Part shown: in pieces, positions 23,530-41,700 of the stretch
Layout: the number at the start of each line of letters is the position of its first letter
Position numbering within the stretch: position 1 is the stretch's first letter
Source of the DNA: Tissierellia bacterium
GTDB taxonomy: Bacteria; Bacillota; Clostridia; Tissierellales; Tepidimicrobiaceae
DNA length: 47,487 nt
Assembly (NCBI GenBank): GCA_012728595.1
Contig: JAAYEU010000006.1
Location: 1 to 47,487, forward strand
Direction of reading: 5' to 3'
Translations under genes and position numbers: made by a program
Notes under the pieces: generated by a model
Told to the model about the DNA's origin: nothing
What the model saw: only the letters and a program-made list of their open reading frames with translations
The model's database searches: none

Positions 23530-24420
23530 ATGGATGGAGTAATCAATATTTTTAAACCAAAAGGTGTTACTTCCCATGATATTGTTAAAAGGGTAAGAAA
23601 AATTTTAGGCATAAAAAAGGTAGGCCATGCAGGAACTTTGGATCCCTATGCTACTGGAGTTCTGCCTGTCTGCGTTGGTAAGGGAACAAGGATTAGCGAA
23701 TATTTACTAGATTTAGATAAGGAATATGTTGGTGAATTAACCCTTGGTATTGCAACTGATACTCAGGATATGGAAGGGGAGGTTATTAGTGCCTCCAGTA
23801 GAAGGGTTACTAAATCTGAAATCTTTGCTGTTTTTGACCGGTTTAAAGGCGAAATATATCAGACTCCTCCCATGTATTCCGCTATTAAATATAAGGGTAG
23901 AAAGTTATATGAATTAGCAAGGGAAGGTAAGACAGTAGAAAGGCCTGCTAGAAAAGCTAAAATATATGATTTAAAGATATATGACATCATAGATGATGAA
24001 AAGGTAATTTTCTATGTTAAATGTTCAAAAGGTACCTATATAAGAACTCTATGTCACGATATAGGTGAGCTTTTGGGTACATATGGCCATATGTCCTACT
24101 TAATTAGAACAGGTGTAGGGAAATTTAGCATAAGTGACAGTTATAGTCTGGATTATATAGAGAAATTAGATAAAGGCGACTTAAAAAAAGTTATTATTCC
24201 TTTAGATGACAGTTTAACCCATCTGGATTATATAGAGATTGATAAGAGGTTCTATAACAATTTAATTAATGGCAATATTATTCCAATTAAATTAGATGAA
24301 AAGCATTATAAATTTGAAAAGCCTTTAAGGGTATACTGTAAGGGTAAATTCTTAGGAATAGGTAGAATAACAAAAAGAAATGATATAATTAACATAAAAA
24401 TGGATAAAGTCCTTGCATAG
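23530..24420 (+). CDS. truB: tRNA pseudouridine(55) synthase
   Basis: GVINIFKPKGVTSHDIV; GHAGTLDPYATGVLPVCVGKGTR. Confidence 0.97.
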   Translation: MDGVINIFKPKGVTSHDIVKRVRKILGIKKVGHAGTLDPYATGVLPVCVGKGTRISEYLLDLDKEYVGELTLGIATDTQDMEGEVISASSRRVTKSEIFAVFDRFKGEIYQTPPMYSAIKYKGRKLYELAREGKTVERPARKAKIYDLKIYDIIDDEKVIFYVKCSKGTYIRTLCHDIGELLGTYGHMSYLIRTGVGKFSISDSYSLDYIEKLDKGDLKKVIIPLDDSLTHLDYIEIDKRFYNNLINGNIIPIKLDEKHYKFEKPLRVYCKGKFLGIGRITKRNDIINIKMDKVLA

Positions 24421-24430
24421 GGTGGTCAAT

Positions 24431-25357
24431 ATGGAAATCATAGATTTAAATGGATATGAAGAAAAAAGATTTGAAACTGCTGTAGCTTTAGGGAACTTTG
24501 ACGGAGTTCATGTTGGACATGAACATTTGATTAGAGATAATATAAAAAAGGCAAAAGAGATGAATTTGAAATCATCAGTCCTCTTGTTTAAAAACCATAC
24601 CAGAACTACTTTAACAAATGAAGGAAAACCGAAACTGAAAATAATCACTCCATATGAAAAGAAAGTAAACATAATAGAAAAGCTAGGGATTGATTTAATA
24701 TTTAGCATAGACTTTGATAAAAATATAATGTCATTATCACCGGAAGATTTTGTTGAGAAATTTTTGATTAAAAAATTGAACTCTAAGTTAGTAACCGTTG
24801 GGTTTGATTATAGATTTTGATATAAAGCAAAAGGCGATAGTAGATTATTAAAAAAGCTAGGGAATGATTTAGGCTTTAAAGTCAATATAATAGAACCAAT
24901 CTATATAGAGGGTGAGCTTATAAGTAGTACTAGGATTCGCCAATTAATAAAATCAGGTCTAATTAGTAAAGCCAATAAATTTCTCGGTAAAAAGTACTCT
25001 ATTTCTGGACGAGTCATAAAAGGTGATAGCAGGGGAGCTGGCATGGGTTTTCCAACGGCTAATTTAAAATTAACTGATGATTACGTAGTTCCGAAGATTG
25101 GAGTATATGAAACAATTACGCTTCTAGAGGGTGGCGAAAGATATAGAAGCTTAACCAATATTGGATACAACCCAACTTTTGATGGAAAAGAGTTAAAAAT
25201 TGAGACACATATTTTAAATTTTGAAGGCAACTTGTATGATAAGGATATTGAAATAAGTTTTATTGATTATATCAGGGATGATATTAAGTTTGATACAGTT
25301 GAAGAACTTATCAAACAAATTCAACTAGACATAGAATATATTAAGAAAAAACAATAA
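24431..25357 (+). pseudogene. ribF: Bifunctional riboflavin kinase/FAD synthetase with in-frame TGA (codon 24818-24820)
   Basis: N part ALGNFDGVHVGHEHLI...VGFDYRF; stop; same frame continues YKAKGDSRLLKKLG...RVIKGDSRGAGMGFPTANL to 25357. Could be a sequencing error instead of a true pseudogene. Confidence 0.9.
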
Positions 25358-37125: not shown

Positions 37126-37154
37126 TTGACTAAAATAGAAAAATATAGTACAAT
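37126..37154 (+). promoter_or_regulatory. Sigma-A promoter of recA
   Basis: TTGACT (37126-37131), N17, TACAAT (37149-37154). Confidence 0.8.
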
Positions 37155-37160
37155 TTATAC

Positions 37161-37174
37161 AGAACTAATGTTCC
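37161..37174 (+). promoter_or_regulatory. LexA/DinR box (SOS operator)
   Basis: GAAC-TAAT-GTTC (37162-37173), matching Gram-positive GAACnnnnGTTC, just downstream of the recA -10. Confidence 0.85.
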
Positions 37175-37215: not shown

Positions 37216-38259
37216 ATGGTTAATAAAAGCGAGAAAAGTAAAGCATTAGATGTGGCTATTAGCCAAATTGAAAAACAGTTTGGTAAAGGCTCAATAATGA
37301 GATTAGGTGACACAAAGATTGAAAAGATGGAAGTAATTCCAACCGGCTCTTTAGAACTGGATATTGCTTTAGGTATTGGAGGTCTACCAAGAGGTAGAAT
37401 CGTTGAAATCTTTGGGCCAGAGTCTTCAGGTAAGACTACTGTAGCTTTACATGCCGTAGCAGAAGCACAAAGAATTGGTGGTATAGCAGCCTTTATAGAT
37501 GCCGAACATGCATTAGATCCAAACTATGCAAAAAAACTAGGTGTAGATGTGGAAAATCTTGTAGTATCTCAACCAGATACTGGGGAACAAGCTTTGGAGA
37601 TTGCAGAGGCTTTAGTAAGGAGCGGAGCAGTAGATATTATAGTGGTAGATTCAGTTGCTGCTTTAGTACCTAAAGCGGAAATAGAAGGAGAAATGGGTGA
37701 TAGCCATGTAGGATTACAAGCAAGACTTATGTCCCAAGCTTTAAGAAAATTAACTGGCGCCATTAATAAATCTAATTCCATAGTGATATTCATAAATCAG
37801 CTTAGGGAAAAGGTAGGAGTAATGTTTGGTAATCCTGAAACCACTACTGGTGGAAGGGCTCTTAAGTTTTATTCTAGCATCCGATTAGATGTCAGAAGAG
37901 TGGATTCAATAAAACAAGGTGATAATGTTATTGGCAATAGAACAAGGGTAAGAGTTGTAAAAAACAAACTAGCCCCACCTTTCAAACAGGCTGAATTTGA
38001 CATAATGTATGGTGTTGGTATTTCTAAAGAAGGAAATATCTTAGACACCGGTGTGACGGCTGAAGTAATAAATAAATCTGGATCTTGGTATAGTTATGGA
38101 GAACATAGATTAGGCCAGGGTAGAGAAAATGCTAAAGAATTTTTAAAGGATAATCCTGATATTGCCTTAGAAATTGAAAATAAAATTCGAGAAAAATTTG
38201 GCCTGGTAGGTGTAGAGGAGAAGAAAAAGGAAGAAGACAAAGGAAGAAGACAAAGTTAA
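37216..38259 (+). CDS. recA: Recombinase RecA
   Basis: [19 protein letters not shown]; continuous, no intein. Confidence 0.98.
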
Positions 38260-38270
38260 TAATGAAAAAA

Positions 38271-38298
38271 AATAAACCTCCTTTTAGGAGGTTTATTT
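38271..38298 (+). terminator. Terminator-like hairpin after recA
   Basis: AATAAACCTCC-TTTT-AGGAGGTTTATT; imperfect T tract. Confidence 0.75.
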
Positions 38299-38305
38299 CT
38301 AAGGG

Positions 38306-39301
38306 GTGTCAATTTTGAAACTACTTTTTTTAACAGATACTCATATTAGAGGAACAACGCCAAAGAATAGGAAAGACAATCTTGTAGAAACGCTAGAAAA
38401 AAAACTTATGGAAATTATAAACATAATCCAAGAATATGATATTGACTATGTCTTACATGGTGGAGACCTATTCGATAGACCTGATATTTCCGTTTCTATA
38501 GTAAGCAATTTTGCAGCCATACTAAATAAATTTAATGTTCCTATTTATATAGTTTCTGGTAATCATGACATTTATGGTCATAATCCTGATACCATTAATA
38601 GGACTATGTTGGGTCTATTAGATGCTTTAAATGTTGTTACAATTGTTAATCGGGATGAGCCCATCTACTTAAGCAAAAACGGTATAAAAGTGCAATTAAC
38701 TGGTCAATCTTATACGTATAATATAGATGATAGAGCAAATTTAGATAATTATATGGTAAGTAATATTCCTAAAGATGTAGATTATGCAATTCATATGGTT
38801 CACGGGATGTTATTAAATAAACCATTTATTAAAGGCATCCCCTATACTTTAATTGATGATATAAAAGAGACTAAAGCCCATATTACATTAGCTGGCCATT
38901 ATCATTCGGGATTTGGAGTAGTAGAAATAGATGGAAGATATTTTGTAAACCCAGGCAGCTTAGTAAGGATTACTAATAGTTTATAAGAAATAGAAAGAAC
39001 TCCTAAGGTAGCTCTTATTAATCTAGATGATACTATTGAAATTAAGCTCCTAGAGTTGAAAATAGCAGAAAAAGGAAACAAAATATTAGACAGACAGGAA
39101 ATCGAAAACCATGTTTTTAAAAGTGAAAGGCTGTTTGAATTTAAACAGTCAATAGATTCGGTAATAGACTTTGAAAAGTTGGAGATAAATGAAATATTGC
39201 TAGAAGTCTCCAATGCTGAAGGGGTATCAGAGGAAGTAAAGGAAGAAGCTTTAAGGAGGATTGCCCATTCTCAGATGAAGAATTTAGGAGATGAAGTGTA
39301 A
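38306..39301 (+). pseudogene. SbcD/Mre11-like metallophosphoesterase with in-frame TAA at 38984-38986 (TTG 38315 alternative start)
   Basis: Phosphoesterase motifs LFLTDTHIRG, HGGDLFDRP, SGNHDIYG, HMVHGM, AGHYHSGFG; NPGSLVRITNSL* then same frame EIERTPKVALINLDDT... to 39301. Confidence 0.85.
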
Positions 39302-39302
39302 T

Positions 39303-40745
39303 ATGAAGTATATTAAAAAAATAATTTTAGAGAACTTCCAATCTCATAAGTACACGGAGATTGAGTTGGATCCCTATCTAAATGTAATAGTAGGTCCATC
39401 AGATCATGGGAAAACAGCTATTATTAGGGGTTTAAGATGGGCCTTGTTTAATGAACCTTCTGGAGATTTTTTTATAAGAGAAGGGGAAAGGGAATGTAGC
39501 GTAACGGTGGTATTTAGTGATAATACGAAGGTCAAAAGATATAGGAGTAAAAGCAAGAACACCTATTATCTTTATAATGCTGAGGGTGAAGAAAAAGTAT
39601 TTGAAGGATTCGGTACCAGGGTGCCTGAGGAAATTATCGAACAAACATCTATGAGGAAAATTACATTGGATGGCAGTCAGTCCAATCTAATCAATATTTC
39701 AGAACAATTAGAAGGACCCTTCTTACTTTCAGAAAAAAATTCGATTAAAGCTAATGCAATAGGTAGATTGGTTGGCGTGCATATTTTAGATGATGCCATA
39801 AAAGGTACTTTAAAGGATATTAGAAACTTAAATCTTAAGAGAAAAAACCATGAAGAAACGAAAGACAGTTTGGAAAAAGAATTAGCGGAATATGATTACT
39901 TAGACTTTTTAGTTTTAACCAAAGATAAATTAAAAAGCATTAGGGAGAAAATTAAAAACACTCAAGAAAAACTTAATAGATTAATCCGGCTATCAAAGGA
40001 ATTAAGGGAGATAGAATATGAAATAGCCTTGTTAGATGAATATTTGAAAAAGTTAGGTAGTATTGATGAAGTAGCAAATATCGAGAGAAGACTAGCAAAA
40101 AACATTAATAGATACAAGCATATCTTTAATAGATTTAATAGATTAGAAGCTATTAAAAAGGATGTGAATCTCGATCAGTCTATAATATATGGCTTAAAGG
40201 ATATAAATAGATGTCAAGATATTGCTCAAATAATAAGAGAAAAATTGATTACAATGACTAAGCTTGAAAGCCTTTATAAGTCGATTAATAAGACTGATGA
40301 AGGAATATTAAATAGCAGAAAAGTCTTAGATGAGCTTAAGGAAATTGAAAGTATTAATAAAAATATTATAGACGCTGAAAACAAATATATTAAGATAGAT
40401 AAATTAATTAAAATTCAAAACAAATTAGATTCCATTAACAAAAGTATTGTTATAGGAAGAGAATATGTAGAAAAATTAATCCATGTAGAAAGCTTAGAAA
40501 CAACTGAGAATTTATTAGTGTCTAAATATAAAGAATTAAGAACATTACTAGACTATAATGAAAGATATAAGCAAATCAGCAGGAGTAAATTAGAGATTGA
40601 AAAAACATTAGTGGAATTGAATGGTAAAATCCATCAATTATTGATGCGTTATAAAGTTTTATTAACGGAATTAAAGGTATGCCCTTTATGCTTTAGCAGT
40701 ATAGATAAATATAAAATAGAAGAAATAATTAAAAACTTCCAATAG
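39303..40745 (+). CDS. Rad50/SbcC-like ATPase N-terminal half: Walker A, long coiled coil, terminal CPLC zinc-hook-like motif
   Basis: IKKIILENFQSHKYTEIEL; GPSDHGKTAIIRGLRWALF; coiled coil; ends LKVCPLCFSSIDKYKIEEIIKNFQ; no Walker B or signature. Confidence 0.88.
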   Translation: MKYIKKIILENFQSHKYTEIELDPYLNVIVGPSDHGKTAIIRGLRWALFNEPSGDFFIREGERECSVTVVFSDNTKVKRYRSKSKNTYYLYNAEGEEKVFEGFGTRVPEEIIEQTSMRKITLDGSQSNLINISEQLEGPFLLSEKNSIKANAIGRLVGVHILDDAIKGTLKDIRNLNLKRKNHEETKDSLEKELAEYDYLDFLVLTKDKLKSIREKIKNTQEKLNRLIRLSKELREIEYEIALLDEYLKKLGSIDEVANIERRLAKNINRYKHIFNRFNRLEAIKKDVNLDQSIIYGLKDINRCQDIAQIIREKLITMTKLESLYKSINKTDEGILNSRKVLDELKEIESINKNIIDAENKYIKIDKLIKIQNKLDSINKSIVIGREYVEKLIHVESLETTENLLVSKYKELRTLLDYNERYKQISRSKLEIEKTLVELNGKIHQLLMRYKVLLTELKVCPLCFSSIDKYKIEEIIKNFQ

Positions 40746-40756
40746 GAGGGGAAAAT

Positions 40757-41005
40757 ATGGATTATGAAAAGGAACTTAGTGATTTAAGAAATAATCTTGA
40801 ACGAGCAAAGAGCTTAAAATATAGAGCAGAGGCAAGACTGGAGCAACTCAACAACCAAAGAGAAGAGTTGATTAAAGAATTACGTGAATTGGGTGTAGAG
40901 CCAGAAGACTTGGAGGATGAAATAAAAAAGTTAACCAGGGAAATTGATGAATTGTTTAAGGAAGCAAATCGATTATTACCTAAAGATATTTTAGAAAAGA
41001 AGTGA
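40757..41005 (+). CDS. Small (82 aa) coiled-coil protein in Rad50-like cassette
   Basis: Good RBS (AGGAGGGG); heptad-rich, fully charged; tightly packed between the two ATPase halves. Confidence 0.8.
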   Translation: MDYEKELSDLRNNLERAKSLKYRAEARLEQLNNQREELIKELRELGVEPEDLEDEIKKLTREIDELFKEANRLLPKDILEKK

Positions 41006-41009
41006 TAAT

Positions 41010-41666
41010 ATGATAAATACTTACGAGGATCTAGACAAATATATCTCTTATATGGAGTCTTTTATAGCTAAAGAAATGGGTAAAAAGGAAAAAATACTTG
41101 AGCAGTTAGAAGAAAAAAAAATAGCAATAGAGGAGATTAATGCCCAAATAGATTTGATTGAAAAAGCCAGTATATTATTACAGAAAACTTCAGAGTTTGC
41201 AAGAAATCAAGCTAAAATTCAAGTAGAATCCTTGGTAACCAATTGCTTACAGTATATTTTCGAGAATAACTTAGAATTTGAAATTGAGATTGAGGAATTA
41301 TATGGTAAACCAAATGCCGAGTTTTATGTAACAACTAAATATGACGATACTTTGATTAAAACAAAGCCTGAATTATCTAGGGGTGGTGGAGTAGTAGATA
41401 TAATTTCATTAGCCCTACGTATAGCCTTTTTGCAAATCCATAAACCTAGGATAGAAGGGCCCTTAATTTTAGATGAGCCAGCTAAACATGTCAGTGAAGA
41501 ATATATATTTAATGTTGCTGACTTTCTAAAACAAACCTCTGAATTGTTTAATAGGCAGATTATAATGGTGACACATAATAACCATCTGGCCTCAATTGGC
41601 ACAAGCGCATATAGGGTCGGAATGAAAGGCACAGAAAGCGTCGTAGAGAAGTTAACATCCGATTAA
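41010..41666 (+). CDS. Rad50/SbcC-like ATPase C-terminal half: signature, Walker B, H-loop
   Basis: Short coiled coil; ELSRGGGVVDIISLALRIAFL; GPLILDEPAKHVS; IIMVTHNNHLA; no Walker A. Confidence 0.88.
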   Translation: MINTYEDLDKYISYMESFIAKEMGKKEKILEQLEEKKIAIEEINAQIDLIEKASILLQKTSEFARNQAKIQVESLVTNCLQYIFENNLEFEIEIEELYGKPNAEFYVTTKYDDTLIKTKPELSRGGGVVDIISLALRIAFLQIHKPRIEGPLILDEPAKHVSEEYIFNVADFLKQTSELFNRQIIMVTHNNHLASIGTSAYRVGMKGTESVVEKLTSD

Positions 41667-41671
41667 TACAC

Positions 41672-41700
41672 TTGACATATTTAATTAAAAGTAATAAAAT
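41672..41700 (+). promoter_or_regulatory. Strong sigma-A promoter upstream of rny
   Basis: TTGACA (41672-41677), N17, TAAAAT (41695-41700). Confidence 0.75.

Follow-up and report, generated by a model that had tools for sequence, protein, structure and literature searches.

The window analysed here is a 47,487-nucleotide contig (JAAYEU010000006.1, assembly GCA_012728595.1) from a Tissierellia bacterium, and our subject is a cassette of four co-oriented, tightly packed genes, designated MPE, A, cc and B, that occupy the interval between recA and rny. We consider it probable, at roughly 0.85, that these genes encode a DNA-end-processing complex of the Mre11-Rad50 (SbcCD) type. Its Rad50 would be synthesised as two separate chains, with the break directly behind the zinc hook, and would be joined by a fourth, small helical subunit. 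A would contribute the nucleotide-binding lobe, arm and hook, and B the second lobe needed for a complete ATP site. The two would make up one Rad50-like head, two such heads clamping ATP and DNA, with MPE seated at the base, where it would act as a nuclease on DNA ends, blocked ends or hairpins. The cassette probably shares a transcript with recA, downstream of an SOS box, which would make it damage-induced, and it would replace the canonical SbcCD that is missing from these genomes. A first-pass annotation of the window had proposed a multi-subunit Mre11-Rad50-type machine with a divided Rad50. Profile matches to Rad50 and Mre11 and a conserved gene order support that proposal; that the subunits assemble, act as nuclease and ATPase, are under SOS control and serve in repair is predicted from sequence.

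Homology identifies A and B as an N-terminal and a C-terminal half of Rad50, with the division immediately past the zinc hook. A profile built from 75 homologues of A had Rad50 N-lobes as its top match (5f3w, 2e-15), and a profile of the last 83 positions of A had the Rad50 zinc hook (1l8d, 3.1e-5). The Walker A motif of A reads GPSDxGK(S/T), with G36-K37 and the Q-loop residue Gln135 invariant in 75 sequences, and the hook motif C-P-x-C, at residues 460-463, lies 17 residues from the C-terminus and is kept in 117 of 118 sequences. For B the top profile match was the Rad50 C-lobe (3qkr_B, 6.9e-13), and Foldseek ranked Rad50 first for both proteins (5.4e-9 for the fold match of B). Walker B (LILDEP, with Asp-Glu) and the H-loop residue His189 of B are invariant, and the Rad50 LSGGE is replaced by (S/D)RGGG(V/I)xD, in which the signature Ser is not conserved. 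The first-pass annotation had described A as an ATPase with Walker A and B as an ATPase with signature, Walker B and H-loop. The Walker A claim was confirmed, the zinc hook being found in addition; Walker B and the H-loop also stood, whereas the signature proved degenerate (xRGGG). Neither fragment had an unrelated family as its best alignment; both fit Rad50 best. A Rad50 gene recently broken by frameshifts is excluded by the same A/cc/B borders in all relatives and phages and by the conservation of cc itself.

The best solved-structure matches of MPE in profile searches were Mre11 and SbcD (Mre11 1ii7, E 3.2e-8). Residues D8, H10, D51, H84, D85, H163, H195 and H197 are invariant and N83 nearly so among 22 sequences, the GNHD and H195xH197 motifs are present, and all metal ligands of the Mre11 phosphodiesterase can be identified. 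These results bear out the earlier description of this gene product as an SbcD/Mre11-like phosphoesterase.

Gene order, co-inheritance and the distribution of SbcCD

The coordinates and motifs first given for a four-gene cassette between recA and rny were mainly right. In 29 relatives the order cinA-recA-MPE-A-cc-B-rny(-spoVS) holds as far as each contig extends. The conservation of the cassette there and in nearly all of the 80 viral contigs described below rules out chance open reading frames. One element of the earlier description did not hold: the cassette had been called an insertion, and a local insertion in a single strain is rejected because the cassette is fixed in much of the order as an operon, probably of single chromosomal origin. 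Chromosomal copies are under purifying selection. A scan of GTDB genomes recovered 243 relatives of B, the best 80 of which were kept; they occur in Tissierella, Anaerosalibacter, Schnuerera, Soehngenia, Peptoniphilus, Anaerosphaera, Tepidanaerobacter, Thermosediminibacter, Acetivibrio, Pseudobacteroides and others. In one Peptoniphilaceae genome (L178, G353:C2:89060-89689) the match to B contains four TGA and two TAA codons and is perhaps frameshifted or decayed; A scores well there.

In Acetivibrio-type genomes (L126, L135 and others) the operon is split. B alone retains the link to rny, lying between folD and rny, and MPE-A-cc form a second cluster, which in one genome (G227) is about 1.1 Mb off. 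Among 37 genomes tested, A was present in 21 of the 22 that carry B and in none of the 15 that do not, a count that leaves out one residual 36-bit match to A; the lone carrier of B without A (G402) has a weak B. Among the sequence data, this co-inheritance of unlinked genes argues most strongly that A and B would work together. MPE and A are also fused into one protein, in loci L220, L238, L252 and L264 and on a Geobacillus plasmid.

Genome searches of this organism returned no SbcD over the cut-off and no SbcC. The absence of a separate canonical sbcCD is what the idea of a divided Mre11-Rad50 machine predicts; an AddA-like protein and a YhaNO-like pair are present. In a sample of the class comprising 393 genomes, 33 with B and 180 with canonical SbcD, the latter occurred in 2 of the 33 cassette genomes versus 178 of the 360 others (Fisher p 4.7e-7). 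Within the order the corresponding figures were 1/38 and 11/15 (p 2e-7), and when the nearest relatives were counted by family, SbcD was found in 0/9 cassette families versus 8/10 cassette-free families, the 8 including one borderline case (G026). YhaO-sized, second-rank SbcD matches occur in cassette-positive and cassette-negative genomes alike. Genomes without both the cassette and SbcCD exist, which makes the pattern one of replacement and not of necessity. We suggest that the cassette stands in for the canonical SbcCD absent from these genomes.

Mobile copies and the arm of A

Relatives of B were found on 118 contigs in IMG/VR, of which 80 were kept for neighbourhood analysis. A, cc, B and MPE occur together in nearly all of the 80, arranged as A-cc-B-MPE, as A-MPE-cc-B or with an MPE-A fusion; a single-chain A-B Rad50 was looked for in the same 80 contigs and none was found. 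The module is also present on Bacillus velezensis plasmid p3 and, in the same order as at this locus, on Alkaliphilus plasmid pB6464. In Bacillus phage vB_BboS-125, the A, cc and B family members are gp32, gp34 and gp35. This phage also has an AP2-domain gene, gp33, between the A and cc genes and an unannotated Mre11-like gene between gp36 and gp37 (L009:9872-10852). Microbacterium phage Magritte (L300, L301) encodes an A-like gp155 and a B-like gp2, labelled 'exonuclease', about 93 kb apart; as Magritte is an actinobacterial phage, the split exists outside Bacillota.

In a tree of 111 B proteins, a single branch (96/80; recovered in 97% of bootstrap trees) has all chromosomal copies on the same side. 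B proteins from mobile elements are far more diverse than chromosomal ones, as seen in an unrooted tree with a chromosomal sample of the 80 best matches. This topology fits a single transfer from mobile elements into the chromosome.

The arm departs from what is usual. In AF2 models, A consists of an N-lobe and a nearly unbroken helix, residues 159-457, running up to the hook (pLDDT 80), and B has an 80-residue helix plus lobe (pLDDT 92). In a normal Rad50 the two arms are equally long. The arm of A cannot be a normal hairpin, because the helix of B is only 80 residues long, and the returning arm comprises at most these 80 residues and the 82 of cc if each protein is present once. The arm of A carries a 47-residue repeat: lags of 47, 94 and 141 are prominent in each of the two sets, chromosomal and viral, and shuffling of columns gives nothing close to this signal. 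Sixteen canonical SbcC proteins from this class showed no such repeat in their arms (z -0.7 at 47). Among viral A proteins the distance to the hook falls in levels, at about 355, 410, 457 and 504. The stepping (R 0.65, with 0/2000 smoothed resamples as high) has a period of ~55, not exactly 47, and 'one repeat per step' is only suggestive.

The lengths of cc (77-103 aa) and of the stretch of B before the signature are nearly constant, and neither scales with the hook distance of A. Since cc stays constant in length while the arm of A varies, cc is unlikely to be a one-to-one strut; that several cc molecules sit on each arm, one per repeat, is a guess. What may be a new Rad50 architecture can be sketched from these data, tentatively and with more doubt than confidence. 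The single arm helix of ~300 residues would consist of 47-residue repeats, variable in number among phages, and several cc subunits, each with a long helix of about 45 residues, would each pack on one repeat and replace the descending arm. Such a machine would amount to a length-adjustable split clamp, which phages would have spread and which would have been domesticated a single time, beside recA in Clostridia.

Alternative readings and layout of the locus

Several observations weigh against a split Mre11-Rad50 complex, or against parts of that reading. The signature motif and D-loop of B are non-canonical, the Ser being lost, and ATP-driven engagement may differ. At equal numbers, an arm of ~300 residues in A and ~160 in B plus cc misfits a two-helix arm, and the AF2 model of A has a low pTM (0.33), with the stretch 122-145 poorly modelled. 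The p-values for SbcCD exclusion ignore phylogeny and are overstated, as the families are clustered, and two genomes (G230 and G402) carry both B and SbcD. Lastly, the MPE gene of this copy has an in-frame stop.

This stop, a TAA at 38984-38986, could mean that the complex is inactivated in this organism, with MPE truncated at residue 223 and deprived of the C-terminal region through which other Mre11 proteins bind Rad50. Such a loss would be compatible with the Mre11-Rad50 reading of the family as a whole, and we regard it as unlikely. The first-pass annotation had identified the gene correctly; its length of 226 aa was wrong, the TAA having been overlooked. Complete MPE proteins of relatives are unbroken, at 322-343 aa, with a variable sense codon at the stop position, which on its own would fit a loss here. 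However, the frame is open and conserved after the stop up to 39301, and nonsynonymous divergence (dN) from a congener (G001) is 0.090 before the stop and 0.091 after it, so that the part after the stop has been under the same constraint. A second in-frame stop of the contig, at 24818-24820, follows GFDYRF in ribF (24413-25357). ribF is normally an essential gene, and the presence of its stop in the same contig suggests that this draft assembly contains errors of sequence. For MPE, such an error or a very recent mutation is thus likelier than a long-standing split of the gene. In Mre11 the Rad50-binding part lies in the C-terminal region (Yoshida 2011, PMC3175470); if real, the stop would spare the conserved metal ligands and remove the corresponding C-terminal third.

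The module might instead serve a purpose of mobile elements, such as phage replication, recombination or counter-defence, the chromosomal copy being domesticated or defence-like and not a stand-in for SbcCD. Most of the sequence diversity is viral, with the chromosomal copies forming one group beside it, phage and plasmid copies lie near genes for helicase, Holliday junction resolvase and primase, and there are weak matches to PADLOC models, LmuB and mad3 among them. These PADLOC matches span the generic ATPase only, however, and chromosomal copies are fixed beside recA in an order conserved across many families, under purifying selection and to the exclusion of SbcCD, whereas defence genes usually vary in place and presence. 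On balance this reading appears improbable. A known anti-phage system was likewise rejected as the identity of the cassette, since LmuB, GajA, PtuA, mad3 and similar models match in ATPase regions only. A further reading, in which A, B and cc are a structural ATPase of the RecF/RecN/SMC kind, loading RecA or bridging DNA next to an unrelated phosphoesterase, would suit the recA-operon position and the weaker matches of A to RecF and SMC heads, but it is very hard to reconcile with best matches to Rad50 that include the zinc hook, and with an MPE whose gene accompanies the other three in nearly all viral contigs and forms a fusion with A in five loci.

The preferred reading, a split Mre11-Rad50 complex, includes a regulatory component. 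Of 88 loci (among which some genomes are counted twice), 62 have a perfect GAACN4GTTC 5' of recA, with 0.017 expected per 280 bp; at this locus we take it to be a LexA operator on the basis of the B. subtilis LexA consensus. Near the recA-MPE gap there is only a weak promoter-like match (9/12), within the end of recA, and a CCTCC/GGAGG hairpin similar to the one at this locus occurs in the gap of most relatives. Co-transcription with recA and SOS induction of the cassette, perhaps damped by the hairpin, would be consistent with this layout. The coordinates are collected in Table 1. For MPE, a start at TTG 38315 is likelier than at GTG 38306, given the ribosome-binding site and the relatives; for A, homology places the start at ATG 39303, the listed open reading frame beginning at 39291.

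Table 1. Features of the recA-rny region, in window coordinates
Feature	Position	Strand	Remarks
recA promoter-like site TTGACT-17-TACAAT	37126-37154	+	-10 followed by the SOS box
LexA-type SOS box GAACTAATGTTC	37162-37173	+	Perfect; just 3' of the recA -10
recA	37216-38259	+	First gene of the presumed transcription unit
Inverted repeat AAATAAACCTCC-TTTT-AGGAGGTTTATTT	38270-38298	+	In the recA-MPE gap; perhaps an attenuator or a partial terminator
MPE, Mre11/SbcD-like metallophosphoesterase	38315-39301	+	328 codons; in-frame TAA is codon 224
A, Rad50 N-half	39303-40745	+	480 aa; N-lobe (Walker A, Q-loop), ~300-residue helix, C-terminal zinc hook CPLC
cc, helical protein	40757-41005	+	82 aa; probable helical hairpin with conserved LGVxPExL turn
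B, Rad50 C-half	41010-41666	+	218 aa; 80-residue helix, degenerate signature SRGGG, Walker B LILDEP, H-loop His
Promoter-like site TTGACA-17-TAAAAT	41672-41700	+	Directly after B; 11/12 consensus matches, by consensus only; presumably for rny

Comparison with known systems

Mre11-Rad50 is nearly universal, and a continuous Rad50 chain that folds back at the hook is treated as a fixed feature of it. Our data point to the cassette as an unrecognised variant of this very old machine. A chain separated after the hook, with most of the returning arm dropped, makes it testable whether a closed two-helix arm is needed in tethering and signalling. The cassette would also explain the apparent lack of SbcCD in many anaerobes (Tissierella, Peptoniphilus, Tepidanaerobacter, Acetivibrio) and suggests likely functions for three vaguely named phage protein families.

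No published description of a split Rad50 was found in the literature searched, which lay mostly outside subscription journals, and within that literature no described family documents such a complex; PHROGs holds its parts separately. A, cc and B are direct members of PHROGs 16465 ('exonuclease'; 1.6e-65), 18563 (unknown function; 7.6e-9) and 15167 ('ATPase'; 2.7e-61), respectively. All three match significantly and are co-localised in phage and plasmids as one module, whereas PHROGs lists them as three separate families and states neither the split nor the link to Mre11.

Canonical SbcCD (TIGR00618/TIGR00619) and archaeal and eukaryotic Mre11-Rad50 have the same MPE fold and catalytic motifs, and the cassette has counterparts of the Rad50 N-lobe and hook and of the C-lobe, the last with a degenerate signature. 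In contrast to these complexes, the cassette Rad50 consists of two chains split after the hook, with an extra 82-aa subunit, arms of unequal length (~300 versus 80 residues), a 47-residue arm repeat and loss of the signature Ser. The hook is mid-chain in SbcC proteins of the same class and near the C-terminus in A. No NCBIfam model was matched over its cut-off, MPE scoring 39.6 bits against the SbcD cut-off of 77.65, and neither A nor B matched an SbcC family.

The YhaO/YhaN system is likewise a pair of Mre11-like and Rad50-like proteins, and this genome has a putative copy on contig C112 (366 and 827 aa). Unlike the cassette, that pair has a single-chain ATPase, and its separate locus rules it out as the identity of the cassette. 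T4 gp46/gp47 is a phage-borne, compact Mre11-Rad50 complex with an undivided gp46. Matches to the cassette came from PHROGs 77 and 100, which are SbcC- and SbcD-like, the SbcC-like one matching far more weakly than PHROGs 16465 and 15167.

A further parallel concerns a Bacillus phage. Locus L252, on a contig of 218,948 bp that is probably phage 0305phi8-36, encodes an MPE-A fusion and, as genes of their own, cc and B. For the SbcDC fusion of 0305phi8-36, the available part of the published account reports that one SbcC P-loop segment was 'not observed' (Yoshida 2011, PMC3175470). The two fusions are alike, and the missing half, which that part of the account does not report, is in this family a separate gene, B, offering an answer to the 2011 puzzle of a phage SbcDC fusion that appeared to lack half its ATPase.

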